The notes under the pieces are model-generated. The model was not told the DNA's origin. It was given only the letters and a program-made list of their open reading frames with translations, and did no database searches. Both the position numbers and the translations under genes were made by a program. This document shows, piece by piece, positions 11,026-48,021 of a stretch of 64,000 bases of DNA. The DNA lies in the NCBI RefSeq assembly GCF_001027285.1, contig NZ_CP011509.1, positions 8,456,501 through 8,520,500 on the forward strand. Reading direction: 5' to 3'. The first letter of the stretch is position 1. Each line of letters starts with the position of its first letter. The DNA is from Archangium gephyra (GTDB taxonomy: Bacteria > Myxococcota > Myxococcia > Myxococcales > Myxococcaceae).

Positions 11026-11949
11026 ATGAGCCCCTTTCGATTCTTCGTGGCCCTGAACGCCGTCCTCCTGGGCCTGCTGTCCCTTCCCGCCCGTGCCGAC
11101 CTCAAGGTGGTCACCACGCTGCCGGACCTCGCCGCCATCACCAAGGCCGTGGGCGGCGAGCACGTGCAGGTGACCTCGCTCGCCCTGCCCACGCAGGATC
11201 CGCACTTCGTGGACGCCCGGCCCAGCCTGGCCCTGGAGGTCAACCGCGCGGACCTGCTGATCGCCATCGGCCTGGAGCTGGAGGTGGGCTGGCTGCCCGC
11301 GCTCCAGAACGGCGCCCGCAACACCCGCATCCTCACCGGCAGCCCGGGCTACCTCGAGGCCGCCCAGTTCGTACGCACGCTCGAGGTCCCCACCACCCGC
11401 GTGGATCGCAGCCAGGGAGACGTGCACGCCGGAGGCAACCCGCACTTCCTCTATGACCCGAGGGCCGCGCTGCTGGTGGCCCGGGGCATCACCGACCGCA
11501 TGGCCTCCCTGGACGCGAAGAACGCGGCGGCCTACCGCGCCAACCTGGAGAAGTTCACCGCGGAGCTGGAGAAGGCGCGCGCGGGCTGGGAGCAGCGGCT
11601 GGCCGGACTCAAGGGCACGCCCGTGGTGGCCTACCACCGGACGACCGCGTACCTGGCCAACTGGCTGGGCTTCGAGGTCATCGCCTACCTCGAGCCCAAG
11701 CCCGGCATCCCGCCCAACCCCGCCCACGTGGCCCAGGTGCTGACGCAGGCGCGCCAGCGCAAGGCCCGCTTCGTCCTCCAGGAGGACTACTACCCCACCA
11801 CCACCTCCAAGCTGGTGGCGAGCAAGATTCCCGCGCCCGTCGTCCTCTTCACCTCGGGCACCGACTTCCGCGGCGGACAGACGTACCTGCAGCACCTGGA
11901 GGATCTGATGACCCGGCTGGAGAAGGGCCTGAAGGGCGAGGGGACCTGA
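11026..11949 (+). CDS. znuA: Zinc/manganese ABC transporter substrate-binding protein
   Basis: A 307-residue periplasmic cluster A-I metal-binding protein. A signal peptide (FFVALNAVLLGLLSLPARA) precedes KVVTTLPDLAAITKAVGGE. The expected metal ligands are present: His in TQDPHFVD, His in GNPHFLYDP, His in VVAYHRTTAYL, and an acidic residue in LQEDYYPTT. The His-rich loop seen in many ZnuA proteins is absent, so zinc versus manganese is not certain. It would hand metal to the ZnuBC pair downstream. The gap to the porin is 24 nt and to the following lipoprotein 3 nt, so they are co-transcribed. Confidence 0.88.
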   Translation: MSPFRFFVALNAVLLGLLSLPARADLKVVTTLPDLAAITKAVGGEHVQVTSLALPTQDPHFVDARPSLALEVNRADLLIAIGLELEVGWLPALQNGARNTRILTGSPGYLEAAQFVRTLEVPTTRVDRSQGDVHAGGNPHFLYDPRAALLVARGITDRMASLDAKNAAAYRANLEKFTAELEKARAGWEQRLAGLKGTPVVAYHRTTAYLANWLGFEVIAYLEPKPGIPPNPAHVAQVLTQARQRKARFVLQEDYYPTTTSKLVASKIPAPVVLFTSGTDFRGGQTYLQHLEDLMTRLEKGLKGEGT

Positions 11950-12798: not shown

Positions 12799-13603
12799 GC
12801 ACGGCGCGGAACAGGCGGCATCCCACGCCACCCATCCCCATAAGCCGGACCTGCTCCTGTGCTGCGAGGACCTGGTCATCGGCTACCAGGGTCAGGCGCT
12901 GCTGCCGCCCATCAACCTCCAGGTGCACCGCGGCACCTTCCTGGCCGTGATCGGCCGCAACGGCTCGGGCAAGAGCACGTGGTTCAAGACGCTGCTGGGC
13001 CTGCAGAACCCGGTGTCCGGCCGCGTGTACCGCTCCAGCGCCCAGGTGAAGAGCGCGTACGTGCCGCAGACGTCCGCCATCGACGGGATGCTCCCGGTGC
13101 GCTCGCGCGAGCTGGTGCACTGGGGACGGCTGACGGGGTGGAACTTCCTGCGGCCCTTCTCCAAGCGGGAGGATCGCCAGGTGGTGGACTCGGCGCTGGA
13201 GACGGCCGGGGCGGGCCCCATCGCCAACCGGCCCTACCGCGAGCTGTCCGAGGGCCAGAAGCAGCGCGCCCTGCTGGCGCGGGTGCTGGCCACCGAGGCG
13301 GACCTGGTGCTGCTGGACGAGCCCACCGCGGCCATGGACGCCGTGGCCGAGCGGGAGACCATGAGGCGCCTGGCGGAGCTGGCGCGCGAGCGGCGCCTGG
13401 CCGTGGTGGTGGTGAGCCATGACCTGCGGGTGGCCGCCGAGTTCGCGGACCAGCTGCTCTTCGTGGATAGAGAGGCCCCGGCCGTGGTTCTTGGGGACGC
13501 GAACACCGTCTTCTGCCATCCTGCCTTCCGGCACCAGTACGGCGACGATTACTGCCCCCGCCATCCTTCTTCAGGACCCACCCTTGGACCCGCAACTGGC
13601 TGA
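12785..13603 (+). CDS. znuC: Metal ABC transporter ATP-binding protein
   Basis: A 272-residue ABC ATPase with Walker A GRNGSGKSTW, signature LSEGQKQR, Walker B ADLVLLDEP and the switch His in VVVVSHDLR. The N-terminal 25 residues are His-rich (HGAEQAASHATHPH), which may buffer metal. GTG at 12785 overlaps the end of the lipoprotein gene, and the end overlaps the permease start by 20 nt, so it is tightly coupled. It powers uptake through the permease encoded next. The metal is inferred from the operon and not from this subunit. Confidence 0.9.
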   Translation: MANGEHGAEQAASHATHPHKPDLLLCCEDLVIGYQGQALLPPINLQVHRGTFLAVIGRNGSGKSTWFKTLLGLQNPVSGRVYRSSAQVKSAYVPQTSAIDGMLPVRSRELVHWGRLTGWNFLRPFSKREDRQVVDSALETAGAGPIANRPYRELSEGQKQRALLARVLATEADLVLLDEPTAAMDAVAERETMRRLAELARERRLAVVVVSHDLRVAAEFADQLLFVDREAPAVVLGDANTVFCHPAFRHQYGDDYCPRHPSSGPTLGPATG

Positions 13604-14462
13604 GACCTCCACCTGGGCACAGTTCTGGGACGCCTACGAGCTGTTCCGGGACCCGATGCTCTGCGCGCTCATCGCGGGCAGCGTGCTGGGTTTCCTCAGT
13701 GTGTACGTGGTGCTGCGGCGCATGGTGTTCGTCAGCGCCGCGGTGACGCAATCGGCCGGCCTGGGCGTCGCGCTGGCCTTCTACGCGGAGATCCACCTGG
13801 GGCTGCACGTGGCGCCCACCCTGGGCGCCGTGGGCCTGTCCCTGCTGGCCACGCTGCTGCTGATGACCGAGCCCACGCGGCTGCGCATCTCCCGCGAGAG
13901 CCTGCTGGGCCTGGCCTACGCGTTCACCGGGGGCGCCTCCATCCTCGTGGGAGATCGCATCTCCCAGGAGGCCCATGACATCCAGGGCATCCTCTTCGGC
14001 ACGGCGGTGCTGGTGGAGCGGCCCCAGCTCATCGCCGTGGCGGTGGTGGGCGCCCTCACCCTGCTCTTCCACCTGTGGTGGTTCCGCGGCCTCACCTTCG
14101 CGAGCTTCGATCGCACCGGCGCCATGGTGCAGGGGCTGCCGGTGCGGGCGCTCGACGCGGTGCTGATGATCTCCATCGGGTTGATGGTGGGTGTGTCGGC
14201 GCGGGCGCTCGGCGCGCTGCCGGTGTTCGCCTTCTCCACCCTGTCGGCCATCGCCGCGCTGGTGTTGGACCTGCGGCTGCCGTGGACCTTCCTGCTGGCC
14301 ACGCTCGCGGGCGCCATCTCCGGCCTGGGTGGCTACATCTTCGCCTACTTCTACGACTTCCCCGTGGGCGGCTCGCAGACGGTGCTCGCCAGCGCGCTGG
14401 TGGTGCTCGCGCTCGTCGCCCGGGGCGTGCGGCAGCTCGTCACGGGCGGCGGGACGCGCTGA
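13584..14462 (+). CDS. znuB: Metal ABC transporter permease (ABC-3 family)
   Basis: An integral membrane protein of about 292 residues with eight or nine hydrophobic segments, typical of ABC-3 permeases. It begins FLSVYVVLRRMVFVSAAVTQSAGLG, the family's first conserved block, and has GALPVFAFSTLSAIAALVL later. The TTG at 13584 has AGGA 7 nt upstream and gives a normal N-terminus (MDPQLAETSTW); the longer frame from 13419 is shadow sequence inside znuC. It is the last gene of the operon. The 340 nt that follow contain the first vestige of the kelch/barrel array. Confidence 0.88.
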   Translation: MDPQLAETSTWAQFWDAYELFRDPMLCALIAGSVLGFLSVYVVLRRMVFVSAAVTQSAGLGVALAFYAEIHLGLHVAPTLGAVGLSLLATLLLMTEPTRLRISRESLLGLAYAFTGGASILVGDRISQEAHDIQGILFGTAVLVERPQLIAVAVVGALTLLFHLWWFRGLTFASFDRTGAMVQGLPVRALDAVLMISIGLMVGVSARALGALPVFAFSTLSAIAALVLDLRLPWTFLLATLAGAISGLGGYIFAYFYDFPVGGSQTVLASALVVLALVARGVRQLVTGGGTR

Positions 14463-17800: not shown

Positions 17801-20652
17801 GCGATGACCTCGCCAGCGCGGAGGTGTACGACCCGGCCACGGGGGTGTGGAGCCCCACGGGCGCTTTGATCATCGGCCGCGAGCAACATACGGCAACGCT
17901 GTTGCCCTCGGGCAAGGTGCTGCTTTCCGGTAGCTATCTCCGCAAAGCCGACTATCTCGCCAGCGCGGAGTTGTATGAGGACACGGGAGCTCGCCAGGAC
18001 TGGAGCCCCATCGTCACCGCACTCACGGGGCAACGGCCGGGTGAGGCAATTCGCATCACGGGGAGCCGCTTGAGAGGAATCTCGGAGGCAAGCAACGGCA
18101 ACGCCCAGAGCTCAGCCACGAATTTCCCCCTGGTCAGCCTGCTGTCGCTGGAGGGAGGAAGGCTGACACGTGTCACGCCTCTGGACTCGTTCTCCGACAC
18201 GGAAGTGACGGTCCGGATGCCAGGCGTGCCGAACGGCTACTATCTCCTTTACGTGACGGCCAATGCCATCCACGGCGGGCAGTTGGTGCTCGTGAACGGG
18301 CCGCCTCTCGAAGCACCCACCGTGACAACGCCCGAGGAGGGAGCCTTCGTCAACAACCCGTGGTCAACCCTTCGTGGCACGGCCAAGGCCGGGAGCACGG
18401 TGACGGTGTGGCTGGAGGGGACCCTGGCGGGGACGACCCGGGCCTCCACGGAGAAGACGTGGGAATTCAGCCCCACCGCGCCCCTGGCCCAGGGCAACCA
18501 CCGGGTCACGGCCACCGCGACAGATGCGGTGGGCAATGTCAGCCCTCACTCCGAGCCCCGCGCCTTCACCGTGGACGCGGAGGCCCCCGCGGTCCCCACG
18601 GTCACAGCGCCCGAGCAGAGCGCCCTCATCAACACCACACAGCCCGCCCTTCGTGGCACCGCGGAAGCAGGGAGCACGGTGACGGTATGGCTGGATGGAG
18701 CCGTGGCGGGGACGACCCGGACCTCCGACAATACAACGTGGGAATTCAGCCCCACCACTCCATTGGCCCAGGGCAACCACCAGTTCACGGTCACGGTCAC
18801 GGATGTGGCGGGTAATGACAGCCCTCCCTCCGACGCCCGCGGCTTCACCATCGACTCGGAGGCGCCAACGGCTCCCACGATGACAGCTCCCGGAAATGGG
18901 GCCCTCATCCACCCACGGACCGCTCTTCACGGAACGGCCGAGGCCGGGAGCACGGTGACGGTGTGGCTGGAGGGGACCCTGGTGGGGACGACCCGGGCCT
19001 CCACGGAGAAGACGTGGGAATTCAGCCCCACCACTCCCCTGGCCCAGGGCAACCACCGGGTCACGGCCACCGCGACAGATGCGGTGGGCAATGTCAGCCC
19101 TCACTCCGAGCCCCGCACCTTCACCGTGGACGCGCAGGCCCCCGCGGTCCCCACGGTCACAGCGCCCGAGCAGAGCGCCCTCATCAACAACACACAGCCC
19201 GCCCTTCGTGGCACCGCGGAAGCAGGGAGCACGGTGACGGTATGGCTGGATGGGGCCGTGGCGGGGACGGCCCTGGCCGCCACGGATGACACCTGGACCT
19301 TCTTCCCCACCACCCCGCTGGCCCAGGGCAATCATCAGCTCACCGCCAGGGTCACGGATATGGCGGGCAATGACAGCCCTCTCTCCGAACCCCGTGACTT
19401 CACCGTGGACACGGAGGCGCCCATCGCACCCCAGGTCACAGCGCCTGGGAATGGAAGTTTCGTCAACGGCGCGCGGCCCACCCTTCGCGGCACCGCGGAG
19501 CCCGGGAGCACGGTGACGGTGTGGCTGGATGGGAAGGAAGTGCTCGGTACGAACATCGTCGTGGACACGGAGGGCTCCTGGAGTTTCACCCCAGCCACCG
19601 CGTTGAGGCCTGGCCATCACCGGCTCGAGGCCAGGGTCACCGACATGGTGGGGAACACCAGTCTGGCCTCGGAAGAGTATTCCTTCGGCATCCAGAGAAG
19701 TCATTACGGCTGGAGTTGCGCCACCGCCCCCTCCTTCTCCGCCACCTGGGCCTTGCTGGCACTGCTCGGGGCTCTCGTCAGGCGCCGGCCCGGCTGGAGG
19801 GCAGGGCTTCGCCTACATTCACAGTGGTGGCACGGAGGTGTACGACCCGGGGACGGGAAGTTGGAGCACCACGGGCCGCTGGAGCCCCACCAACAGGCGG
19901 CCTGGGCGCCGAGCAGCGAAGCAGATCACCGTTCGAGTGTGATGCACGTCACCATGCTCGAACGCTTCACGTGTTACCTTTCCCTCTCACCTCGAGCCCA
20001 CCAGCACCCCCAGACGAATGGACGGGGGTGTTTGTCTTTCATCCCCTTTCCAACGGCTGACTCCATGAAGCTCCTCCTACGGCATACACTGCGGTTGTTC
20101 CTCGTATGCGCGCCGGTCTCCGCCGCCTACGCCCAGGAGCCCTCGACGCTCCAGGTCCCCCAATCCCAGAACCCCTACATCTCCGCCATCGCCACCCTCT
20201 ACAACCAGGGCAGGTACCAGGAGGCCCTCTCCAAGCTGGAGAAGGCCCTGGACGGGAAGTCCAATGGCACCGAGGAAGTCGTCTGGCTGCTGCTCATGCA
20301 GGGCGTGCTCCAGGCCGAGCTGTCCCAGGGCGAGGCCCTGGAGTCCTTCAAACAGGCCCTCGCCCTCGACAAGGACGCCCAGCTGCCCCTGCAGGGCTCC
20401 AGACGGCTGCGCAAGCTCTTCGAGCAGGCGCGCAGCACGCTCGGCCTTCCCGCGGACAAGGAGCTCCTCGCCCAGGAGCTGGAGCAGAGCGCCGCCGCTG
20501 CCAAGGCGCCCCAGCGCTCTGGCCCCCCACCCCGCCGCTACGGACTGAGTCTGGGCGTGCGGGGCGAGGTGGATGTGCTCGGGTTCCGCCTCACCACCGC
20601 CTCCACTTCCGAGGACAGCTCCGGCGACCCCCCCAGCAGCTGCTCGGCGTGA
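14806..20652 (+). CDS. Giant kelch-repeat/Ig-like lipoprotein, reading through into the next barrel gene
   Basis: An open frame of 1948 codons. Residues 10-25 are a lipoprotein signal ending LLWLAC. 21 kelch units (about residues 58-1055) follow, each about 49 residues with [15 protein letters not shown] and [16 protein letters not shown]. Next come an E-set/IPT-like domain (about 1065-1165) and five Ig-like domains (about 1168-1632). The tail, SHYGWSC plus helix plus RRR (about 1633-1665), is a Cys-type sorting signal. Related genes stop here; this one does not, and it runs in frame into the barrel protein at 20065. TTG at 14806 aligns with the ATG of the sister genes (GGAGACAGTC before both). 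A surface or outer-membrane adhesin-like role is inferred. Units are almost identical at DNA level, suggesting recent homogenisation. 17365-17400 is a micro-duplication of SAEVYD. Confidence 0.8.
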   Translation: MPHPSRTRVEAVTLLALVPALLWLACGERPRSGDEALQRERLGTRVLQATSGGQWSLTGALATNRVDHTATLLTSGMVLVSGGHGPSDYLASAEVYDPATGAWSPTDALAMARSSHTATLLPSGKVLVSGGHGPSGPLASAEVYDPATGAWSPTSGLAMARHGHTATLLPSGKVLLSGGHGPSGSLASAEVYDPATGAWSPTGAPATARASHTATLLPSGKVLVSGGYGPDGTLSSAEVYDPATGEWSPTGGLAMARSHHTATLLTSGRVLVSGGYGPDGSLASAEVYDPATGEWSPTGALATAHSSHTATLLPSGKVLLSGGYGPGPLASAEVYDPATRTWSSTDALAMARVRHTATLLPSGKVLASGGSEGSDAEVYDPATRAWSPTGALAMARASHTATLLPSGKVLLSGGYGPSSRLASTEVYDPATGVWSPTSALTTARSSHTATLLPSGKVLLSGGIGPNGRLASAELYDPATGVWSPTGALATARSNHTATLLPSGKVLLSGGIGPGYTPLASAELYDPATGEWSPTGALTMARSSHTATLLPSGKVLVSGGSTLASAEVYDPATGEWSPTGALATARSHHTATLLPSGKVLLSGGSGPGPLASAEVYDPATGAWSLTGALAMARSSHTATLLPSGKVLLSGGSGPSGSLASAEVYDPATGAWSPTDALAMARSHHTATLLPSGKVLLSGGYGPSGSLASAEVYDPAAGEWSPTGALARARSNHTATLLPSGKVLVSGGHGPSGPLASAEVYDPATGEWSPTGALAMARSHHTATLLPSGKVLVSGGIGPGDYPAPRLASAEVYDPATGVWSPTGALATARSHHTATLLPSGKVLLSGGSASDHPSSAEVYDSAEVYDPATGVWSPTGTLATARSHHTATLLPSGKVLLSGGIGPGGYLSSAEVYDPSTEGWSPTGGLAMARHGHTATLLPSGKVLLSGGGNSSVSLSSVEVYDPATGGWSPTDELATARSHHTATLLPSGKVLVSGGYAPGDDLASAEVYDPATGVWSPTGALIIGREQHTATLLPSGKVLLSGSYLRKADYLASAELYEDTGARQDWSPIVTALTGQRPGEAIRITGSRLRGISEASNGNAQSSATNFPLVSLLSLEGGRLTRVTPLDSFSDTEVTVRMPGVPNGYYLLYVTANAIHGGQLVLVNGPPLEAPTVTTPEEGAFVNNPWSTLRGTAKAGSTVTVWLEGTLAGTTRASTEKTWEFSPTAPLAQGNHRVTATATDAVGNVSPHSEPRAFTVDAEAPAVPTVTAPEQSALINTTQPALRGTAEAGSTVTVWLDGAVAGTTRTSDNTTWEFSPTTPLAQGNHQFTVTVTDVAGNDSPPSDARGFTIDSEAPTAPTMTAPGNGALIHPRTALHGTAEAGSTVTVWLEGTLVGTTRASTEKTWEFSPTTPLAQGNHRVTATATDAVGNVSPHSEPRTFTVDAQAPAVPTVTAPEQSALINNTQPALRGTAEAGSTVTVWLDGAVAGTALAATDDTWTFFPTTPLAQGNHQLTARVTDMAGNDSPLSEPRDFTVDTEAPIAPQVTAPGNGSFVNGARPTLRGTAEPGSTVTVWLDGKEVLGTNIVVDTEGSWSFTPATALRPGHHRLEARVTDMVGNTSLASEEYSFGIQRSHYGWSCATAPSFSATWALLALLGALVRRRPGWRAGLRLHSQWWHGGVRPGDGKLEHHGPLEPHQQAAWAPSSEADHRSSVMHVTMLERFTCYLSLSPRAHQHPQTNGRGCLSFIPFPTADSMKLLLRHTLRLFLVCAPVSAAYAQEPSTLQVPQSQNPYISAIATLYNQGRYQEALSKLEKALDGKSNGTEEVVWLLLMQGVLQAELSQGEALESFKQALALDKDAQLPLQGSRRLRKLFEQARSTLGLPADKELLAQELEQSAAAAKAPQRSGPPPRRYGLSLGVRGEVDVLGFRLTTASTSEDSSGDPPSSCSA
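14990..17990 (+). repeat. Tandem in-frame kelch units, 21 copies of about 147 bp
   Basis: The same block recurs 21 times with few changes at DNA level: gtgtacgacccggccacggg, then cacaccgcgacgctg and ggcaaggtgctg. Most variation falls in the short loop after SGG (GHGPSGP, GYGPDGS, GIGPGDY and so on). The unit codes for one kelch blade. Near-identity between neighbours suggests ongoing unequal exchange or gene conversion, and it makes the copy number liable to assembly error. Confidence 0.9.
18310..19430 (+). repeat. Duplicated two-domain Ig-like block (Ig1-2 and Ig3-4)
   Basis: Four consecutive Ig-like domains are arranged as a duplicated pair of about 560 bp. Domain 1 resembles domain 3 (both with AGTTRASTEKTWEFSP or VGTTRASTEKTWEFSP) and domain 2 resembles domain 4 (both with TVTAPEQSALIN). 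A fifth, more diverged domain follows. Sister genes have two or five Ig domains without this pairing, so the duplication is recent and local. Confidence 0.75.
19826..19891 (+). repeat. Out-of-frame kelch-unit fragment behind the first kelch gene
   Basis: In its own frame this stretch reads [17 protein letters not shown] followed by RWSPTN, a clear piece of a kelch unit. It lies after the sorting tail and in a different frame from the host gene. It sits where sister genes have their stop codon and GC hairpin, so a recombination event probably replaced those with this fragment. The rest of 19795-20064 holds only the 36-bp element at 19918. Confidence 0.7.
19918..19953 (+). promoter_or_regulatory. 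Conserved 36-bp element upstream of barrel gene, copy 1
   Basis: One of three ungapped 36-bp copies, each ahead of a barrel gene. The shared pattern is GAAGCRGATCACC, five or six variable bases, RGTGTGAWGC, and TCACC at the end. TCACC and GGTGTGA give it weak dyad symmetry. Here it ends 111 nt before the ATG at 20065. It could be a promoter or operator; no protein can be named. Confidence 0.6.
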
Positions 20653-21053: not shown

Positions 21054-24000
21054 ATGACATCGACATCCAGACTTGAAACGCGAGCGGCCCTCCGGTGGCT
21101 GGCCATGGCCTCCGCGCTGCTCTGGCTCGCCTGCGGCGAGGCGCCACGAGGCGGAGAGGCCCACCCGCGCCGCGAAGGACTCGAGAGCCCATTGCTCGAG
21201 TCCACGGCCGGCGGGCAGTGGAGCGACACGGGCTCCCTGACCACGGCCCGTAGCTTCCACACGGCCACGCTGCTGCGCTCAGGCAAGGTCCTCGTCGTCG
21301 GAGGGGGAGACGCCGACACCACCCGCCTCGCGAGCGTGGAGGTGTACGACCCGAGCACGGGGATATGGAGCCCCGCGGAAAGTCTGGCCACCCCCCGCGG
21401 AGGCCACACGGCGACGCTGCTGCCCGACGGCAAGGTGCTGGTCGTCGGAGGTCTGGGCCCGGCCTCCCGTCTCACCAGCGCGGAGCTGTACGACCCGAGC
21501 ACGGGAAGGTGGAGCCCCACCGGCGCGCTGACCACGGCCCGCTTCATCCACACGGCGACGCTGTTGGACAATGGCACGGTGCTGGTCTCCGGAGGTACAG
21601 GCGAGCGCGGCGCTCTCGCCGGAGCGGAGGTGTATGACCCGGCCACGGGGAAGTGGAGCACCACGGGCTCTCTCAACCAGCCGCGCGCCTTGCACACGGC
21701 GACGCTGTTGGACAATGGCACGGTGCTGGTCGCTGGCGGTGAGGCCGCCACGGAGCTACCCCTCAACAGCGTGGAGCTGTACGACCCGGACACGGGGACG
21801 TGGAGTCTTCTCACTGAAGTCCTGGGCCATGACCACTCCTGGCATACGGCGACCGTATTGTCCTCGGGCCAGGTGATGGTCACCGCGGGTGCACTGAAGG
21901 GCCGCCTCGGCAGCACCCATGTCGAGGTGTACGACCCGGCCTCGCGCACGTGGAAACCGACGGGTGCCCTGTCCACGGCCCGTTACAACCACACGGCGAC
22001 GCTGTTTCCCGATGGCAAGGTGCTGGTCACCGGTGGCACGGGCAAGAATTTGGCGAGTGCCTCTCTCGCCAGCGTGGAGCTGTATGAGCCGAGCACCGGG
22101 ACGTGGCGCGACCTGAGCTTCCTGCGCACGGCGCGCTCCGCGCATACGGCGACGCTGCTGCCAGACGGCAGGGTGCTGGTCGTCGGCGGCGTGGCTCAAG
22201 GCGGCGTTCTGGCCACCGCGGAGGTGTACGCCCCGGGGAGGGGGAAATGGAACTCGATGAAGCTCCCGGCCATGGCCCGCTCCAAGCACACGGCGACCCT
22301 GTTGCCCGATGGCAAGGTGCTGATCGCCGGTGGGGAGTCCTCCACGGAGGTACGCCTCGACAGCGCGGAGGTGTACGACCCGGCCACGGGCAGGTGGAGC
22401 CCGGCGGGCGTCCTGGGAACGGCCCGCTCCAACCATACGGCGACCCTGCTGCGCTCGGGCAAGGTGCTGGTCACTGGCGGCTCGATCCAGAGCAACAGCG
22501 CTCTCTCCAGCGCGGAGCTCTACGACCCGGCCACCAGGACCTGGAGCACGACCCATGCGCTGACCGCGGCCCGTTATGGACATACAGCCACGCTGCTGCG
22601 CAGCGGCCGGGTCCTGGTCACGGGAGGCCGCGGCCCCGATGGCTTTCTCGCCACCGCGGAGGAGTACGACCCGGTCACCGGGAAATGGAGCTCCACGAAA
22701 GACATGGGCATGCGCCGCCACCTCCACGCCGCGACGTTGTTGCACGACGACCGGGTGCTGATCACCGGAGGTATCAATCCGGAAGGTGCGAGCCCCCAGG
22801 CGGAGATCTACGACCCGAATACGAGGAAATGGCTCTACATGGGCCACATCGATGCGCGCCTCCAGCACACGGCGACACTGCTGCCCTCGGGCCTGGTGCT
22901 CATCACCGGAGGCACCCACCTGAGTGGCGCCCTGGCTGTCGCGACGGTGTACGACCCGGGGACGGGGCAATGGGATTACACGGGCCGCATGACCACGGAC
23001 CGCAAGGGCCACTCGGCGACGCTCCTGCCCTCGGGACAGGTGCTGGTCACCGGCGGCCATGGTCCACAAGGTCTCCTCGCCTCCGCGGAGCTGTATGATC
23101 CAGACAAGCAGACGTGGAGCCCGGCAACCTCCCTGCCCACCGCCCGCGAGTCGCACACGGCGACGCTGCTGCCCAACGGCCAGGTGTTCGTCACCGGCGG
23201 GACGAAGCAGAGCACGGTCTACAACGAGGCAGCCCTGTATGATCCGGGCGTGGGCCGCTTCACCACCACCGGCACGCTGGCCCAGGATCACCAGCACCAC
23301 ACGGCGACGCTGCTGCCGGATGGACACGTCCTCGTGGCCGGAGGACTGGATTCCAGCGGAACCGCGCTCTCCCTCGCGGAGGTGTACGACCCGAGCAAGG
23401 AATCCTTCACCGCCACGGGCTCGCTGATGCGGGCTCGCCACCACCACACAGCGACCCTGTTGGTCGGCGGCCAGGTGCTCGTGACGGGAGGCCAGGACTC
23501 CAGCGGGCCACTCCAGACAGTGGAGGTCCATGATTCGCGTACGGGCCATTGGACCACCACCGGGCCGCTCACCCAGGCGCGTTCCTCCCATACCGCCACG
23601 CTTCTGCCCGGCGGCAAGGTGCTCGTGGCTGGAGGCCAGGACTCCAACGGGCCAACCCAGACAGTGGAGGTCTATGATTCGCGTACGGGCCAATGGACAG
23701 CCATCGCGTCGCTCACCCAGGCGCGTTCCTCCCATACCGCCACGCTTCTGCCCGGCGGCAAGGTGCTCGTGGCCGGAGGCCAGGACTCCAGCGGGCCACT
23801 CCGGACAGTGGAGGTCTACGATTCGCGTACGGGCCAATGGACCACCATCGCATCGCTCGCCCAGGCGCGTTCCTCCCATACCGCCACGCTTCTGCCCGGT
23901 GGCAGGGTGCTCGTGGCCGGGGGACAGCAAGGCCTCACCTCCCTCGCCAGCACGGAGGTGTATGACCCGGGTACGGGCCAATGGACGGAAACAAGTCAGC

Positions 24001-25232
24001 TGGCGCAGGCCCGTTCCTCTCATACCGCCACGCTTCTGCCTGGCGGCAAGATACTCGTGGCCGGGGGACGGGGCGCGAGCGGCACACCGCTCCTGGGCGC
24101 CGAGGTGTACGACCTGGCCACCAGCCAGTGGACCCCCACCGGCTCGATGGCTTCGGCCCGGCTCGAGCACCCCACGGCGACGCTGCTGGCCGGTGGCCAG
24201 GTGCTCCTCATCGGAGGAGGCCATGCCAGCGCGGAGAGGTACGAAGACCTCACGCCCCGCGAGGAGTGGCGCTCCGAGCTCCATCCGCTCGAAGCCTCTC
24301 CCACCCGGAATGGGGAATTCAGGATCACGGGCAGCCGCTTGCGAGGCTTCTCGGAAGCCAGCAGTGGGACCGCGCAGTCCTCCGCCACGAACCTCCCCCT
24401 GGTCAGCCTGATGGCGGTGGAGGGAGGAGCCGTGACATATCTCCCGCCCCTGGCGTCCTCGAGCCCGTTCTCCGACACGGAGATGACCCTCCGGATGCCG
24501 GCGACCGTGCCGGATGGCCATTACATCCTCTCGGTCGTGACCAATGCCATCCACAGTGGACAGATGGTGTGGGTGAAAGGACCGGAGCTGGTCGCCCCCG
24601 AGGTGAACGCACCTGGAGCCTTCGTTCCCCAGAAAAGGCCAGACATCCAGGGCACGGCGAAGGCCGGCAGCAGCGTGACGGTGTGGTTGGACGGAACGAT
24701 GTTGGACCCGGTCGTGACGGATGCGGACGGCAATTGGAGCCTCTCCGTGGCCAGTGACCTGGAAGAGGGAGGCCATGAGCTCAAGGCCATCGCCCAGGAC
24801 GAGGCCGGCAATGTCAGCCCCAGCTCCGAGGAGCTCGGCTTCACGGTCGACACCGTACGGCCGGAGGCGCCCGAGGTGCTCATGCCTGGGAGTGCCGTGG
24901 GCACCCAGAGGCCAGACATTGGCGGCAGGGCGGAGCCGGAGAGCACGGTGACGGTGCGGCTAGATGGCCAGGAGGCGGGAACGGTCCGGGCGGATGAGAA
25001 GGGGGAGTGGGTCTATCGCCCGGCCGGGGATCTGGCCGCGGAGCGCCACGAGGTCTCCGCCACCGCGACGGATGCGGCGGGCAACACCAGTCCCCCCTCG
25101 GCCGGGTACGCCTTCATCATCCAGAAGAGCCACTACGGCTGGAGTTGCGCCACCGCTCCCGCCTTCCCCGCGACCTGGGCCTTGATGGTGCTGGCCTTGT
25201 CTCTCGGTAGGCGCCGGCGCGCGTCTCGTTGA
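21054..25232 (+). CDS. Giant kelch-repeat/Ig-like lipoprotein (cassette 2)
   Basis: 1392 residues. A lipoprotein signal ([10 protein letters not shown]) is followed by 21 kelch units (about residues 50-1063). An E-set/IPT-like domain (about 1066-1180) contains [20 protein letters not shown], and two Ig-like domains (about 1181-1357) follow. The sorting tail is SHYGWSC, a [10 protein letters not shown] helix and RRRR, with a normal stop. Early units are diverged; units 16-20 ([19 protein letters not shown]) are close copies of each other, so expansion continued at the 3' end. ATG at 21054 has GGAG 6 nt upstream. It should reach the cell surface as a lipoprotein and be processed again at its C-terminus; see the findings on the double signal. 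Ligand unknown. Confidence 0.85.
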
Positions 25233-27276: not shown

Positions 27277-30200
27277 ATGACATCCATTTCCAGACATGGG
27301 ATGGGAGCGGTTGCCTGGCTGGCCATGGCCTCGGCGCTGCTGTGGCTCGCGTGCGGCCAGGTACCGCAGGGCGGGGACGAAGTTCCGCAGAGCGAAGGCA
27401 TGGAGTCCCAGGCACTCCTGAGTGAGGGATGGCTCATCACAGGCTCCATGCATGAGCGCCGCATGGAACATACGGCGACATTGCTGCCAGACGGCAAGGT
27501 GCTCGTCGTTGGGGGGACAAATAAAACGGAAAAAAGTGGAGGCACCACCGTGTACAACAGCACGGAGGTGTACGATCCGGGCACGGGCCAGTGGAGCCTC
27601 ACTGGCAATCTGAACGTGGCTCGCCACGCTCACACGGCGACGCTGCTGCTCGATGGCAAGGTGCTTGTCGCCGGCGGAGCGGACAATGATGGCAATCCCC
27701 TCGAGAGTACGGAGGTGTACGACCCAGGCACGGGCCAGTGGAGCCTCACTGGCAATCTGAACGTGGCTCGCCGCGCTCACACGGCGACGCTGCTGCTCGA
27801 CGGCAGGGTGCTCGTCGTCGGCGGAACGAACAGCAAGTACAGCACGAGCAGTGATTACGTCTCTGCCCTCAACAGCGCGGAGCTGTACGACCCGGTAAGC
27901 AATAGCTGGACCCACGTGGACGCTCTGATGAAAAAGCCCCGCACGGACCACACGGCAACGCGACTACAGAACGGCAAGGTGGTCGTTATCGGGGGGCGAA
28001 ATACCACTGAAGAACTCGACAGTGCGGAGGTGTTCGACCCGACTTCAAAAACATGGGAGGTAAAAGGCGGGTTGATACTTGCGTCCTTCAACCACTCGGC
28101 GACCTTGCTGCCGGATGGCAAGGTGCTCGTTGTGGGGGGCCAATTCAAAAGTCCCTTGGATCCTGGTTGTCATGACTCCCGTCATAGATCAGAGCTGTAC
28201 GATGCCGAAGACGGAGTAGCCCGTTACGCTCATGATATGGGCGAGGAACGCACCCAACACACGGCCACGTTGCTGCCGAGCAGCAAGGTGCTCATCGCTG
28301 GCGGGGCGTACATGAACGTCATCAAGCGCCTCGACAACAGCAAAGAAACCACAGAGTGCCTTGTAAAACCTTTCTACCTCGCCGAGATTTCTGATGGTGG
28401 CATCTACTCCGACGCTGGAATGGAAAGAGCTGATTATATCAACACCCCCCGCACCAAACACACAACGACGCTGCTGCCAAACGGCAAGGTGCTCGTCACG
28501 GGGGGTAGGTTCCAGAACGCTGTCTATAACAGCGCGGAGTTGTACGACCCGGGAGCGGGTCAGTGGAGCCCGACCCAAGAACCGCCTTTCAAGAACCGTC
28601 TCCAACACACGGCCACGCTGCTGCCAAACGGCAAGGTGCTCATCGCTGGAGGTCAGAACACCAGCAGAGCTCCCCTCCAGAGCGTTGCAGAGTACAACCC
28701 ATACGCAGACGCGGGCACAGACGCGGGCCAATGGGCTGAGCGCGGCTCGCTCAATCATGCCCGCCACTCCCACACGGCCACGCTGCTGCCGAACGGCAAA
28801 GTGCTCATTGCAGGCGGCCAGGGCACCAGCGGAGTTCCCCTTCAGAACGTTGCAGAATACAACACAGACGCAGACGTAGATGCAGGCGTAGACGCTGGCC
28901 AATGGGCTGAGCGCGGCTCGCTCAATCATGCCCGCTACTCCCATACGGCTACACTGCTTCCCGGCGGTAAGGTGCTCGTTGCAGGCGGCCAAGGCACCAG
29001 CAGCGACGGTGGTGTCATTGCTCTCGCCAGCACGGAGGTATATGACCCGGGGACAGGTCAATGGGCTGTGAGCGGCTTGCTCAATCATGCCCGCTACGCC
29101 CACACGGCCACGCAGCTTCCCGGCGGCAAGGTGCTCGTTGCCGGGGGGCTAGACACCAGCGGCAACTCCCTCAACCAGGTGGAGATATACGACCCCAGTA
29201 CACTCCAATGGACTCGTGTTGACCAACCGTTGCGCCAGGCCCGCTATGACCACTCGGCCACGCTGCTGCCCGATGGCAAGGTTCTCGTTGTCGGAGGGCG
29301 GGACATCAGCGGAGCCCCCCTCACCAGCGCGGAAGTGTACGACCCGGAATGGCGCCAATGGGTATCTACCGGCGCGCTCAAGCAAGCTCGTTTCCAGCAT
29401 ACCACTACGTTGCTCTTGAGCGGAAAGGTACTCGTTGCCGGAGGACAAGGCGACAGCGCCACCATGCTTCCCAGCGAGGTATACGACCCGGGCACGGGCA
29501 GATGGAGCGCCACCCATTCGCTCAATGAGGCACGCACCCACCACACGGCGACGCTCCTGACCAGCGGACAAGTGCTCGTCACCGGGGGAGGGGACGTCGG
29601 AGTGGAGATATATGAAGACACGGGAGCCCAACAGCAATGGCGCCCTGTAATCAAACCACTCGATACGCGAAGTCGAGGGGATGAACTCATCATCAGCGGG
29701 AGCGGCTTGCGAGGTCTGTCGGAGGCCAGCAGTGGTACCAACCAGAATTCCGCCACGAACTTCCCCCTGGTCAGTCTGATGTCAGTCGAGGGAGGAGCGC
29801 TGACTCGACTGAAGATCGAAGGCTCGATCTCAAACACGACCCTGACTCTACAGATGCCGGACTTGCCGAATGGCTATTACATCCTTTCTGTCATGACTAA
29901 TGCCATACACGGTGGGCAGTTGATGCAGGTGAAGGGTCCACCCCTCGCAGCGCCCGTGGTCACCGCGCCTGGGATTTTCGTTAACGTCTCACGGCCCAGC
30001 ATCAGCGGCACGGCGGAAGCTGGTAGAAGAATAACGGTGTGGCTGGATGAGACCGTCATAGGAACCACCATGGCCGATGAGGAGGGCGCCTGGAGTTTTA
30101 CCCCGGCTACATCGCTGGCCGAGGGGATTCGCCGGGCCAAGGCCACTGCGACGGATGCGATGGGCATTGTCAGCCCGTTCTCCGGGGAGCACAGCTTCAC

Positions 30201-31407
30201 GGTCGACACAGTACATCCAGTAGCGCCCGTGGTCACCGTACCAGGGAACAGTGTCAACACGACCACTCCAACCATGGGTGGCACGGCGGAGCCCGGTAGC
30301 ACGGTAACGGTGTGGCTGGATGGGGCCGCGGTAGGAACCATTGTAACCCACGAAGGGAATTGGTCACTCACTTCCGACAGGGTGCTGGACCCTGGTCCTC
30401 ACGAGGTCTCGGTCACCGCAGTGGATGCGGCAGGCAATCTCAGTGCTCACTCCGCGATCCATCGCTTCGAGATTGACCTCACGCCGCCGGTAGCACCGAT
30501 GGTGACCGAGCCCGATCGCCTGATCACCGGTCTGAATCCAGTCATTGCTGGTACGGCTGAGCCTGGCAGCACTGTGAGGGTGTGGCTGGACGGAGCCGAG
30601 GCTGGGGAAACCCCGGCAACCAAGGATGGGAAGTGGTTCTTCAGACCAGACAACGTGCTGAATGAGGGTCGCCACGTAGTCTTGGCCACCACAATGGATG
30701 CGGCGGGTAACCTCAGCGCTAGCTCTGTGCCCATCAGCTTCGAGCTCGACTCCACAGCGCCGGAACGGCCCAATGTGACCGAGCCCAGATTTGGGACCTC
30801 CATCAACGACCCACAACCCACCATTCGAGGCACGGCGGAGGCCGAGATCGTGGTGACCGTGACGCTGAATGGGAAGACAGTGAGCACTGTGACCGACAAG
30901 ATGGGGAATTGGAGTTTCACCCTGGACACGCCGCTGGGACACGGAAGTTACTCTGTCAAAGCCCTCGCATGGGATGCGGCGGGAAATGACAGTGCACCCT
31001 CCGCGCTCCACATCTTCGAAGTCGACCTCATCCCACCGGAGGCGCCCAAAGTGAGTGGACCTGGGGCCGTCGTCACAACCCACCAGCCAATCATCAGCGG
31101 CATCGCGGAGCGCGATAGCGCGGTGAATGTGTGGGTGGATGGCAAACGGGCAGAAACAGTCCGGTCGAATGGAAATGGGGACTGGTCTTATGTTCCGGCC
31201 AATGGGCTGGCCGGAGGCAGCCACAATGTTTTCGCCACCGCGACGGATGAGGCAGGTAACACCAGTCAAACCTCAGCCATGCACCCTTTCTTCATCCAGA
31301 GGAGCCATTACGGCTGGAGCTGCTCCTCTGCGCCCGATTTCCCTGCCAGTTGGGCCTTGCTGACACTGGCATTGGCTCTCCACAGGCGCCGGCTCAGGTC
31401 TCCTTGA
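27277..31407 (+). CDS. Giant kelch-repeat/Ig-like lipoprotein, intact cassette 4
   Basis: 1376 residues with lipoprotein signal [10 protein letters not shown]. 14 kelch units (about 50-778) include two with long inserts: unit 6 carries about 60 extra residues, and units 8-10 carry Asp/Ala stretches such as DADVDAGVDAG. The E-set/IPT-like domain (about 783-888) is followed by five Ig-like domains (about 889-1340). The sorting tail is SHYGWSC, a WALLTLALAL helix and RRR. The DNA looks richer in A and T and in rarer codons than the rest of the window, so this copy may be older or acquired separately. It ends convergently with the CHAT gene, overlapping it by 14 nt. ATG at 27277 has GGAG 6 nt upstream. 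Confidence 0.85.
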   Translation: MTSISRHGMGAVAWLAMASALLWLACGQVPQGGDEVPQSEGMESQALLSEGWLITGSMHERRMEHTATLLPDGKVLVVGGTNKTEKSGGTTVYNSTEVYDPGTGQWSLTGNLNVARHAHTATLLLDGKVLVAGGADNDGNPLESTEVYDPGTGQWSLTGNLNVARRAHTATLLLDGRVLVVGGTNSKYSTSSDYVSALNSAELYDPVSNSWTHVDALMKKPRTDHTATRLQNGKVVVIGGRNTTEELDSAEVFDPTSKTWEVKGGLILASFNHSATLLPDGKVLVVGGQFKSPLDPGCHDSRHRSELYDAEDGVARYAHDMGEERTQHTATLLPSSKVLIAGGAYMNVIKRLDNSKETTECLVKPFYLAEISDGGIYSDAGMERADYINTPRTKHTTTLLPNGKVLVTGGRFQNAVYNSAELYDPGAGQWSPTQEPPFKNRLQHTATLLPNGKVLIAGGQNTSRAPLQSVAEYNPYADAGTDAGQWAERGSLNHARHSHTATLLPNGKVLIAGGQGTSGVPLQNVAEYNTDADVDAGVDAGQWAERGSLNHARYSHTATLLPGGKVLVAGGQGTSSDGGVIALASTEVYDPGTGQWAVSGLLNHARYAHTATQLPGGKVLVAGGLDTSGNSLNQVEIYDPSTLQWTRVDQPLRQARYDHSATLLPDGKVLVVGGRDISGAPLTSAEVYDPEWRQWVSTGALKQARFQHTTTLLLSGKVLVAGGQGDSATMLPSEVYDPGTGRWSATHSLNEARTHHTATLLTSGQVLVTGGGDVGVEIYEDTGAQQQWRPVIKPLDTRSRGDELIISGSGLRGLSEASSGTNQNSATNFPLVSLMSVEGGALTRLKIEGSISNTTLTLQMPDLPNGYYILSVMTNAIHGGQLMQVKGPPLAAPVVTAPGIFVNVSRPSISGTAEAGRRITVWLDETVIGTTMADEEGAWSFTPATSLAEGIRRAKATATDAMGIVSPFSGEHSFTVDTVHPVAPVVTVPGNSVNTTTPTMGGTAEPGSTVTVWLDGAAVGTIVTHEGNWSLTSDRVLDPGPHEVSVTAVDAAGNLSAHSAIHRFEIDLTPPVAPMVTEPDRLITGLNPVIAGTAEPGSTVRVWLDGAEAGETPATKDGKWFFRPDNVLNEGRHVVLATTMDAAGNLSASSVPISFELDSTAPERPNVTEPRFGTSINDPQPTIRGTAEAEIVVTVTLNGKTVSTVTDKMGNWSFTLDTPLGHGSYSVKALAWDAAGNDSAPSALHIFEVDLIPPEAPKVSGPGAVVTTHQPIISGIAERDSAVNVWVDGKRAETVRSNGNGDWSYVPANGLAGGSHNVFATATDEAGNTSQTSAMHPFFIQRSHYGWSCSSAPDFPASWALLTLALALHRRRLRSP

Positions 31408-45122: not shown

Positions 45123-45728
45123 TCACGCCCCGGCGAACGGGGCAAACGATTCGTCCACGACAGGCCGCTCCAGCGCCTCGACGCGCCCGGCCAGACACCG
45201 CCACTCCCCCGCCAACGACTCCGCGCTCACGGGCGAGGCCTTGGGCCGCGCCGCGAGGCACTCGTGCCGCCAACCCGGGCCCATGAGCCCGAGCACCCAC
45301 TCCTCGTATCCGGCCAGCCACCGGGCCAGGACGCTCACCGCGGTCCGGGCGGCGGACTGCTCGCGCGGGGTGACGGGTGCACGCGGGCCGCCGAGCCCCG
45401 CCGCCTGGAAGACGGGCCAGGTGACGCGCGCCTCCTCCACCAGGACGGGAGAGAAACCATCGCGCGGCACGTAGATGGACTCGCCGCACACGCGGCATAG
45501 CGCCCCAAAGCCCCACAGCGTGAGGGCCCCTCCCCCGGGCAACGCACCCGAGTAGGCGCTGGTCCCCTGCTGCCCCGCCGGCATGCGCTCGCGGGTGAGG
45601 CCATGGCGCAGCAGCAGGTTGTCCGCGTGGGTGACATCGCGGCCGATGCACCACATGGAGACGTTGAACAGCCGCTCCCCGTCGCGCCGCACGTCCTGCG
45701 GGAGGGGGTGGAGAAGGGAGGAGCCCAT
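45123..45728 (-). CDS. Conserved hypothetical protein with one CxxC
   Basis: 201 residues that I do not recognise. An N-terminal part (DGERLFNVSMWCIGRDVTHAD) is followed by a Gly-rich loop and CRVCGESIYVPRDGF, a lone CxxC that could be half of a small zinc site. The C-terminal half is helical. No signal peptide. ATG at 45728 has GAGGAG 8 nt upstream. It sits 12 nt after the preceding gene's stop and 11 nt before the TPR gene, so co-expression with the TPR protein is likely. Confidence 0.68.
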   Translation of the reverse strand: MGSSLLHPLPQDVRRDGERLFNVSMWCIGRDVTHADNLLLRHGLTRERMPAGQQGTSAYSGALPGGGALTLWGFGALCRVCGESIYVPRDGFSPVLVEEARVTWPVFQAAGLGGPRAPVTPREQSAARTAVSVLARWLAGYEEWVLGLMGPGWRHECLAARPKASPVSAESLAGEWRCLAGRVEALERPVVDESFAPFAGA

Positions 45729-45740
45729 CCGCGTGTCTCC

Positions 45741-46118
45741 TCAGCTCGCCTTGGCCGCCGCGCCCTTGCGGACCGGCACTTCGCCGAACAGCGCCTTGAA
45801 GTCCACCGGCTGGCCACCCTTCTTGGACAGCACGGCGTTCACCGCGCGCACCAGCTTGCCGCGCACCTTCGCCGGCAGGGGCTGGTCCTCCAGCGCGGCG
45901 GTCACCTGCTGCACGCTCACGCCGCGGCCGCTCCTGGGCTTGCCGATGCCCAGCTCCGCGTACGGCTTCGCCTGCTGCTCCTTGTCGCGCCGCTTGTCGG
46001 AGCGCTGCTTCGCCAGCTTGCGGTCGTCCCCGGCGCGGGCCTCGAGCTGGCCGGACAGACGCACCAGCGTCTCGGGCTTCAGCTGCTTCTCGTCCAGGAA
46101 CTGCTTGAAGGTACCCAT
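45741..46118 (-). CDS. Small basic hypothetical protein
   Basis: 125 residues, not recognised. It starts MGTFKQFLDEKQLKPETLVR. A strongly basic middle (RKLAKQRSDKRRDKEQQAK) and a C-terminal helical part, LEDQPLPAKVRGKLVRAVNAVL, follow, with an Ala/Lys tail. The charge pattern could suit nucleic-acid binding, but no domain supports it. The start used is the ATG at 46118, with AGGAG 6 nt upstream; an ATG two codons earlier is less well placed. Same-strand neighbours lie at 12 and 73 nt. Confidence 0.68.
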   Translation of the reverse strand: MGTFKQFLDEKQLKPETLVRLSGQLEARAGDDRKLAKQRSDKRRDKEQQAKPYAELGIGKPRSGRGVSVQQVTAALEDQPLPAKVRGKLVRAVNAVLSKKGGQPVDFKALFGEVPVRKGAAAKAS

Positions 46119-46191: not shown

Positions 46192-46683
46192 TTACTTCGT
46201 GCCGCCGGTGTGCGCGCCGAGCATCCGGCGGTGCTCCTCGCCCAGACGCTCGTGCTCGCTCACCATGGACTTGTGCTCGTCACGCATCTTGCGGTGCTCG
46301 TCCTCCATCCGGTCGTGCTCGGAGGAAGCGGGCTTGCCTTCGCCATGGGAGGCCTCGAGCTGACCGTGGTCACCCACGAGCTTCTGGTGGGCCTCCACCA
46401 CCGACTGGTGGCGGGAGAGCAGCTGCTCGTGCTGCGCCTCCAGCGCGTCGTGCTCCGCGTCGGCCGCGCCGCCCTTGACGCGGTCGTGCTCGGCCACCCA
46501 CGCGCGGTGCTCGGCCTCCATCTTCTGGTGGGCCGCTTCCATCTCCTGGTGGTCCGCCTCCATCTTCTGGTGGGCGGCGGCCAGCTCGGGCTCCAGCGCC
46601 GTGGAGGACTTCGCGCAGCCCGTCAGGGCCAGCACCGCGCCCGCGAACGCCGCCAGCAGCTTGCGCTCAGTGCTCGTCCGCAT
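46192..46683 (-). CDS. Lipoprotein with a histidine-heptad coiled coil
   Basis: 163 residues. A signal with lipobox (AVLALTGC) makes this a lipoprotein. The mature chain is one long helix in which His recurs at almost every seventh residue, 17 in all, as in AAHQKMEADHQEMEAAHQKM and SEHDRMEDEHRKMRDEH. A heptad places all His on one face of a coiled coil, where they could bind metal or protons in the periplasm. ATG at 46683 has GAGGAG 7 nt upstream. Its start overlaps the end of the next lipoprotein gene by 17 nt. Function not known. Confidence 0.78.
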   Translation of the reverse strand: MRTSTERKLLAAFAGAVLALTGCAKSSTALEPELAAAHQKMEADHQEMEAAHQKMEAEHRAWVAEHDRVKGGAADAEHDALEAQHEQLLSRHQSVVEAHQKLVGDHGQLEASHGEGKPASSEHDRMEDEHRKMRDEHKSMVSEHERLGEEHRRMLGAHTGGTK

Positions 46684-47146
46684 GGGAGGTCTCCTCGATG
46701 ACCAGCGAGACACTGCTCTCGGACGTGGGGCCGAAGGTCAGCGTGTACGAGCCCACCGACAGCGGCGCCACGTAGCGGCCCTTGACGTTGGTGCACTCCG
46801 TCGAGCTCGTCGCGGACTCCTCGAACGCCACCTCTCCGGAGCCGTTGGTGACCTTCAGCGTCACGTTCGAGCCCAGGAAGAAGACGTAGTCGGAGGCCTC
46901 GGCCACCGCGAACGACACGGAGCCCACGTTGCCCCCGGTGCCCGCCGGCAGCGAGATGTCGTAGCGCTTGTGATCATTGCTCACGGCCTGGAGGGTGCCC
47001 GTGGCCGAAGCACTCGCGGTCACGGCGGCGCTGGGGCCCTCCTGGAGGTGCTCGCACCCCTCGACATCGGCCTCGTTCTTCTCGCCACCACACCCCGCGA
47101 GCAGCGCGCTCGACAGAAGGCAGGCGGACAGCAACTTCTTCATCAT
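46667..47146 (-). CDS. Lipoprotein of unknown function
   Basis: 159 residues with a clear lipoprotein signal (LLSACLLSSALLAGC). The mature part begins with an acidic GEKNEADVEGCEHLQEG and continues as a beta-sandwich-like domain (DYVFFLGSNVTLKVTNG, RYVAPLSVGSYTLTFGP). Two Cys (in EGCEH and TECTN) may form a disulfide. ATG at 47146 has GGAG at 9 nt. It overlaps the His-heptad lipoprotein gene downstream, so the two are probably translated together and may act together at the cell envelope. Confidence 0.72.
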   Translation of the reverse strand: MMKKLLSACLLSSALLAGCGGEKNEADVEGCEHLQEGPSAAVTASASATGTLQAVSNDHKRYDISLPAGTGGNVGSVSFAVAEASDYVFFLGSNVTLKVTNGSGEVAFEESATSSTECTNVKGRYVAPLSVGSYTLTFGPTSESSVSLVIEETSHADEH

Positions 47147-47477: not shown

Positions 47478-47915
47478 TCAGACCCGTGGCGGTGAGGACT
47501 TGGGGGCCAGGTGGAGCCAGGCGACCTGGGGCTCCACGGCCACGCTGTCCGCCTCCAGCACCTGTCCCGACAGGACGGGCGCTTCCAGCGACAGCATCAC
47601 TCCCGCCGAGGGCTGAACCACCCGGCGGAGGAAGACATGGGCGCAGTGTGCATCCGCGCCGTGCACGGACACCTGGGCGTCCGTGCGGGTGATGCGCTCG
47701 TCCTCGAAGGACTCGCGCACCTGAAGCTGAGCTTCTCCCTGCCCGGCCGAGGCCTCGTGCACCATGTCCCCGTGCTCGACGCACGCGGCGTGCTGCACGA
47801 GGAAGAAGTGCGCCGCGCTTCCCAGGTACGCCAGCACGCACATCAGCACCAGCGGCAGCGCCAGCAGGCGGGGCCGTCGGTACAGCGCGGGCTCTTGGCG
47901 GTGGAGGCGGCTCAC
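47478..47915 (-). CDS. Exported His/Cys protein, paralogue of the one at 9184
   Basis: About 145 residues. A hydrophobic segment (LLALPLVLMCVLAYLGSA) leads to AHFFLVQHAACVEHGDMVH and later GADAHCAHVFLRR, two His/Cys patches. The end, LHLAPKSSPPRV, nearly equals that of the protein heading the zinc operon. Both look like small periplasmic metal-binding proteins. The start is uncertain; GTG at 47915 is used because it sits just before the basic N-terminus, but no good ribosome-binding site is seen. It leads the minus-strand run containing the His-heptad lipoprotein. Confidence 0.6.
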   Translation of the reverse strand: MSRLHRQEPALYRRPRLLALPLVLMCVLAYLGSAAHFFLVQHAACVEHGDMVHEASAGQGEAQLQVRESFEDERITRTDAQVSVHGADAHCAHVFLRRVVQPSAGVMLSLEAPVLSGQVLEADSVAVEPQVAWLHLAPKSSPPRV

Positions 47916-48021
47916 GGGAAACACGGTTTCAGGGAAAACTACGTTTGCGTCTATGTTTGTACGCGAGGGCGCCCGCGCGTGCAAGTCCAGACACGGCGGC
48001 GCCCCCAAATAACGCGATGAA

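Follow-up and report, generated by a model that had tools for sequence, protein, structure and literature searches.

A predicted three-helix protein with a histidine core, encoded near zinc-type genes in several bacterial lineages, is probably a zinc-binding protein

Introduction

The first paper on histidine zippers, coiled coils with histidines in regular repeats, is reportedly that of Nostadt in 2020. Three-helix bundles with His metal sites have also been made de novo, for example by designing a zinc site into a single-chain three-helix bundle. The histidine zippers of Hartmann and Lupas include the CASP14 targets T1083, T1084 and T1087 and the structure with PDB code 5LOS (PMC8616854). 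In the accessible text of that paper they are presented as a novel sort of coiled coil, with a role that is only guessed, and are hairpins of two helices with interdigitating His, many of which are homo-oligomeric. No function is assigned to them there; a role as metal ion scavengers is proposed as possible, with no gene context named, and members are 15-23% identical to 5LOS (PMC8616854). Among exported His-rich proteins, the periplasmic silver-binding SilE provides peptides whose HXXM motifs bind Ag+, according to the accessible part of PMC10080550. For gene context, the accessible part of PMC2770081 reports that genes of subfamily 5 of the COG0523 GTPases cluster with genes for WD40 proteins, with znuABC, and with Zur sites.

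General features of the His-heptad gene

The window analyzed here is a stretch of 64,000 nucleotides from Archangium gephyra (Myxococcota; assembly GCF_001027285.1, contig NZ_CP011509.1, positions 8,456,501 to 8,520,500 of the forward strand). It contains a gene, referred to below as the His gene, with the following features.

46192..46683, minus strand: His-heptad lipoprotein gene, 163 amino acids, 17 His
46615..46683, minus strand: signal peptide and lipobox LTGC (residues 20-23) with predicted lipidated Cys23, assigned by eye

The gene is present in a single copy (the second match has an E value of 0.027) in the genome, which consists of one contig of 12,489,432 bases. All 17 His of the product (the His protein) lie in the mature chain and none in the signal peptide. 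They form three runs, the first with five His (38, 45, 52, 59, and 66), the second with six (78, 85, 92, 99, 106, and 113), and the third also with six (123, 130, 137, 144, 151, and 158). In total, 14 of the 16 His-His gaps are exactly 7 residues, and the two breaks measure 12 and 10 residues. When the mature chain was shuffled 200,000 times with its composition kept, no shuffle matched the 14 gaps of multiples of 7, the maximum being 8. A simpler statistic, how many His share one fixed register (6), is unremarkable, being reached by 24,956 of the 200,000 shuffles, because the two breaks shift the register twice.

A reading of the sequence alone (the sequence-only reading) had described a lipoprotein coiled coil with His at every seventh residue over the whole mature chain and a stripe of His along one face of the helix. 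The lipoprotein with heptad His is confirmed by the lipobox seen by eye and the spacing given above, and all of the His are indeed in the mature chain; the register, however, is divided into three separate His-heptad segments rather than being continuous. His occupies heptad position a, and position d is mostly Met or Leu: reading three residues on from each of the first 16 His gives M, M, M, W, and V in the first run, L, L, V, L, L, and G in the second, and M, M, M, L, and M in the third. The stripe thus faces the presumed core on each helix rather than an exposed side. A trace of a 21-bp tandem repeat (3.2 copies, 82% match) at positions 46506-46573, within the first predicted helix, suggests that the heptads grew by duplication.

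Predicted fold

The mature chain was predicted by AlphaFold2 to form three helices.

46474..46590, minus strand: predicted helix 1, residues 32-70, with His 38, 45, 52, 59, and 66 (AlphaFold2)
46348..46458, minus strand: predicted helix 2, residues 76-112, with His 78, 85, 92, 99, and 106 (AlphaFold2)
46204..46323, minus strand: predicted helix 3, residues 121-160, with His 123, 130, 137, 144, 151, and 158 (AlphaFold2)

His 113 sits just beyond the end of predicted helix 2. The model of the Archangium protein, built with three sequences, has a mean pLDDT of 83, with most helix blocks above 90, and a pTM of 0.72. With a gammaproteobacterial homologue, from a Methylococcaceae metagenome-assembled genome (MAG), as the target, AlphaFold2 placed helices at residues 25-63, 70-108, and 114-159 (mean 81.7, pTM 0.70). 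The two modelled members, which share 34-37% identity, thus both appear as three helices joined by short loops, and the two breaks in the His register coincide with the predicted interhelix loops. One continuous His rod, a shape considered in the sequence-only reading, is ruled out by this coincidence and is not borne out by either model. Loops as short as those of the models imply that neighboring helices are antiparallel, in an up-down-up bundle with the His turned inwards. A Foldseek search against the PDB gave no match at an E value of 0.001 or better, and the best VIA-align Z score, 12.8, is of a size that the notes of that program describe as common among helical bundles. Histidine zippers were not among the entries seen in the match lists of the two programs, an absence that is uninformative.

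Relatives and conservation of the His

In total, 12 full members were found, in 8 Myxococcota genomes, in 3 Methylococcaceae (order Methylococcales), and on 1 plasmid of Persicobacter (Bacteroidota), with identities to the window protein from 89% down to 31%. Among the 195 Myxococcota genomes, 11 had matches, comprising 8 full members, 2 divergent homologues, and 1 artefact. The only true relative among 369 sampled Gammaproteobacteria was in the centre genome itself, and the same was true among 398 genomes of its phylum; within its order, 3 of 201 genomes carried a relative. The search of plasmids gave the Persicobacter relative only, and searches of viral contigs and of phages gave none.

Four genomes with matches (G042, G244, G310, and G612) were left out of the member counts. 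The His heptads of G042 are a repeat artefact, because positions 324-686 of L023 (contig 117) are a 21-bp DNA tandem repeat of 17 copies read as His-Trp heptads; G042 has further matches on four other contigs, and its repeat mimics the family in searches. The match in G244 is a 7-bp tandem repeat and that in G310 a 986-amino-acid coiled coil. In G612, the His protein is reduced to 44 residues of its C-terminal part (L057, 1495-1629), encoded directly after a CobW-type gene. Weak matches to the His protein, with E values of 2e-4 to 6e-4, occur in G020, G034, and G058.

Among 8 non-redundant members, most of which share pairwise identities of 30-44%, no columns of the protein are better conserved than those of the His. 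In the alignment of the 12 members (window protein included, residues 24-158), 13 of the 17 His columns are invariant, compared with 7 of the 118 other columns (Fisher P = 3e-10), and the non-His cells in the remaining four His columns are Asp (five) or Glu (one). Each member has 15 to 17 His in register out of 16 to 18 in total. Across the members, position d of helix 1 is mostly Met, Leu, or Trp, that of helix 2 mostly Leu, and that of helix 3 mostly Met, with Met filling 19 of 40, 4 of 40, and 30 of 40 cells, respectively, in the 8 non-redundant members; Met at d is often exchanged for Leu, Ile, or Trp while the His stay. A lipobox-like Cys was recognized by eye in 7 of the 12 members, and the other 5 have a signal peptide with no clear lipobox, which indicates that predicted export is kept and lipid anchoring is not.

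Homologues that keep the heptads without the His, which the sequence-only reading had named as evidence against it, occur in part. Two divergent homologues, in G563 (where the gene adjoins groEL) and in G007, retain 10 and 7 of the 17 His, and the other 12 of the 14 aligned sequences retain 15 to 17. These two homologues argue most strongly against His being strictly required; by eye, no zinc gene was recognized adjoining either of them.

The conservation also bears on a structural explanation, by which the protein would be an Lpp-like envelope coiled coil whose His are tolerated core residues or belong to heptads spread by expansion of a 21-bp repeat. The repeat trace in helix 1, the two divergent homologues, and a weak score with the Lpp/OprI alanine-zipper model (18.2 bits) fit such a protein. 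However, that score is below the cut-off of 43, the His are the best conserved columns at such low pairwise identities, and nearly all of them are kept in 12 of the 14 sequences, so that this explanation is improbable.

Zinc-type gene neighborhood outside the Archangium group

CobW-family genes (PF02492, COG0523) were searched for in 12 genomes. The sequence-only reading had suggested looking for homologues near metal genes, and they were found: in all six of the full members outside the Archangium group with a genome to search (G641, G558, G120, G621, G010, and G520), the His gene has a CobW/COG0523 GTPase gene at a distance of 0.6-5.1 kb. Two genes of this family are present in G558, each no more than 10 kb away. 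The chance of a CobW/COG0523 gene within 6 kb, a radius chosen after the distances had been seen, is 0.4-1.4% per genome. Since three of the six genomes share one family, the product over four lineages, 8e-10 assuming independence, is the fairer figure. The 15-kb locus of the Persicobacter member contains no COG0523 gene, and no CobW/COG0523 gene was found on the contig of the divergent homologue in G007. An open reading frame (ORF) adjoining the Persicobacter homologue (L033, 4826-6139) resembles a ChrA-type chromate transporter by eye.

The GTPases of loci L050 and L053 score 677 and 614, above the cut-off of 600 for the NCBIfam model of the zinc metallochaperone GTPase ZigA, and those of L052, L022, and L018 fall under it. 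A DUF1826 gene adjoins the His gene in L050, L052, and L053; it is located away from the His gene in G010, G018, G084, and G120 and is absent from 6 of 13 genomes. The DUF1826 gene of L053 (8378-9047) is split across two frames, which reflects either a broken gene or a sequencing error. In L018, L022, and L049, the adjoining gene encodes a WD40 protein. For the TonB receptors of L052 and L053, the best-matching model is that of the zinc receptor ZnuD, with 401 and 373 bits, below its cut-off of 950; for the receptor of L049, the match is to a siderophore receptor model, also under the cut-off. L050 also has a cation efflux gene, and L022 a gene for a NicO-type transporter that scores just over the cut-off. 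ZnuA-family genes are on a contig other than that of the His gene in G010 and G520, and none was found in the G558 genome.

The Fur-family genes in L049 and L050 have PerR and Fur as their best NCBIfam names, both under the cut-off. A scan with a gammaproteobacterial Zur box consensus gave one site with 3 mismatches upstream of the TonB receptor gene in L053 (expected number, 0.04) and no site in L052, and a looser scan with the same consensus gave no site in 10 of 12 sources.

The Archangium group and the surroundings in the window

A CobW/COG0523 gene is near the His gene in none of the five Archangium-group genomes. The window contains genes of the ZnuABC type.

11107..11925, plus strand: ZnuA-family (PF01297) substrate-binding protein domain, the only one found in the genome
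12785..13603, plus strand: ABC transporter ATPase, ZnuC type
13602..14462, plus strand: ABC-3 family permease, ZnuB type

The ZnuA-family gene is 34 kb from the His gene in this genome. The distance was checked in four Archangium-group genomes (G004 was left out), and in three of the four it is 6-8 kb: the only ZnuA-family gene of the genome lies 7.8, 6.4, and 7.3 kb from the His gene in G001, G018, and G084, respectively. A ZnuC/ZnuB-type pair lies within 4-6 kb of the His gene in L019, L020, and L021. ABC transporters of the ZnuABC type can also carry manganese, and the zinc assignment in the Archangium group therefore rests on the other clusters.

Three further genes close to the His gene in the window have products with no Pfam family.

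46667..47146, minus strand: small lipoprotein upstream of the His gene
45741..46118, minus strand: uncharacterized protein downstream of the His gene
47478..47984, minus strand: small protein encoded further upstream, with one likely membrane helix and with His and Cys in its tail, start uncertain

The upstream lipoprotein gene shares the 17 bp at its end with the start of the His gene, and the two proteins are likely cotranslated. This lipoprotein and two proteins downstream of the His gene, including that encoded at 45741..46118, are kept in L017, L019, L020, and L021. The protein encoded at 47478..47984 has relatives in the same four loci and also one in the zinc-type cluster of L049, with about 34-37% identity. 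A proposed neighbor shared between the window (45123-45728) and L022 (159-689) was rejected as too weak (28% identity, pairwise E value of 5e-5). Elsewhere in the window, a small His-bearing protein with no Pfam family (9184-9597), related to L020 75-491, is encoded near the znuACB-type genes, and three tandem ORFs (14806-20652, 21054-25232, and 27277-31407; 1,948, 1,392, and 1,376 amino acids) appear by eye to encode lipoprotein-like products with Kelch-like repeats.

Possible function of the His protein

The export signal, the His register, the conservation of the His, and the gene neighborhood point to a zinc-binding protein of a little-known coiled-coil type, which, judged from sequence, the His protein probably is. 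The main reading, to which a probability of roughly 60% is given, is that of a periplasmic zinc buffer or carrier whose His bundle may hold several zinc ions. The protein would be exported, and in Archangium lipid anchored, and its mature chain would fold into the predicted compact three-helix bundle. On the inner faces of this bundle, some 17 His at position a would alternate, ladder-like, with Met, Leu, Val, or Trp at position d. Several zinc ions would be held by these His, in the periplasm and at or close to the membrane, and under zinc scarcity the protein may buffer or carry scavenged zinc and hand it over to a ZnuABC-type importer. Of the periplasmic metal-binding rod put forward in the sequence-only reading, the metal-binding part is thus favored, at the level of sequence, by the conserved His and by neighbors of the CobW/COG0523, ZigA, DUF1826, ZnuD-like, and ZnuABC types, and the rod is lost. 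A more specific proposal is tentative and somewhat less likely than not: this natural single-chain bundle would load a column of zinc into its core of about 17 His, fold or tighten on filling, and act, in bacteria that are unrelated to one another, as the periplasmic zinc store of a cluster for zinc starvation. Counting against zinc are the lack of a nearby COG0523 gene throughout the Archangium group, the long distance to the ZnuA-family gene in the window, and the Met-rich d positions, which would also suit Cu(I) or Ag(I).

Copper or silver is the main rival, on account of the enrichment of Met at d in the first and third helices but not in the second. The protein would then be a periplasmic sponge of the SilE type: His together with Met from shared helix faces would take up Cu(I) or Ag(I) and so protect the cell. 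The H-x-x-M motif that binds Ag+ in SilE peptides recurs in helices 1 and 3, and the NCBIfam SilE model gives a weak score (18.9 bits, E value of 0.0015). However, this score is far below the cut-off of 200, the neighbors that can be named are of zinc type and not of copper or silver type, and Met at d is often replaced where the His are retained; a copper or silver sponge is accordingly considered unlikely.

His at core positions would titrate near pH 6, and the sequence is compatible with a pH-sensitive zipper in which buried neutral His, binding no metal, open the bundle when protonated in acid, but an acid sensor would not be expected to be associated, in one lineage after another, with genes for metallochaperones and zinc-type uptake, which makes this reading of the core a poor prospect.

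Comparison with known systems

Searches of the His protein against the Pfam profiles (best E value, 0.097) and the NCBIfam profiles gave only matches under the cut-offs, and a literature search, with subscription papers mostly outside its reach, gave no paper on the protein or on a three-helix histidine zipper. Sequence searches of the PDB up to an E value of 10 gave no histidine zipper chain, the known members themselves being only distantly identical to 5LOS in the accessible text of PMC8616854.

Like SilE (NF047789), the His protein is small, exported, and rich in His and Met, with H-x-x-M motifs; it scores far below the SilE cut-off, as given above, and is predicted to be helical, whereas SilE is disordered without Ag+ according to the accessible part of PMC10080550. 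It shares with the Lpp/OprI alanine-zipper lipoproteins (NF040598) the character of a small helical lipoprotein but fails their cut-off, and its core consists of His with Met or Leu. The designed three-helix bundles resemble it in being single chains with His pointing inwards; they are artificial and hold one site, whereas the His protein is natural and has up to 17 His.

The closest likeness is to the histidine zippers. The sequence-only reading knew of no named family for such a protein; a named kind does exist in these coiled coils (PMC8616854, accessible text), which are likewise helical with His in regular repeats along the helices, as are the 14 of 16 seven-residue gaps and the 13 of 17 invariant His columns here. 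One histidine zipper member comes from Methylobacter, of the Methylococcaceae, the family to which three homologues of the His protein belong. As to interdigitation of His between antiparallel helices, the short loops of both models imply antiparallel neighbors, and arithmetic on the helix ends is compatible with His layers opposite either His or d residues. Histidine zippers are hairpins of two helices in that text, whereas two members of the present family are predicted to have three helices, each with its own run of His. With no hairpin predicted and no sequence link from the PDB searches, the His protein is best taken as a variant rather than a proven member, and it would be a three-helix variant of the histidine zipper built on the same idea. 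The clear genetic link of such a relative in kind to zinc-handling genes across several lineages opens the guessed role as a metal scavenger to direct testing. If the zinc reading is true, histidine zippers, so far without a function, would gain a job and a metal, and a multi-site buffer with a His core would join the known periplasmic zinc proteins.
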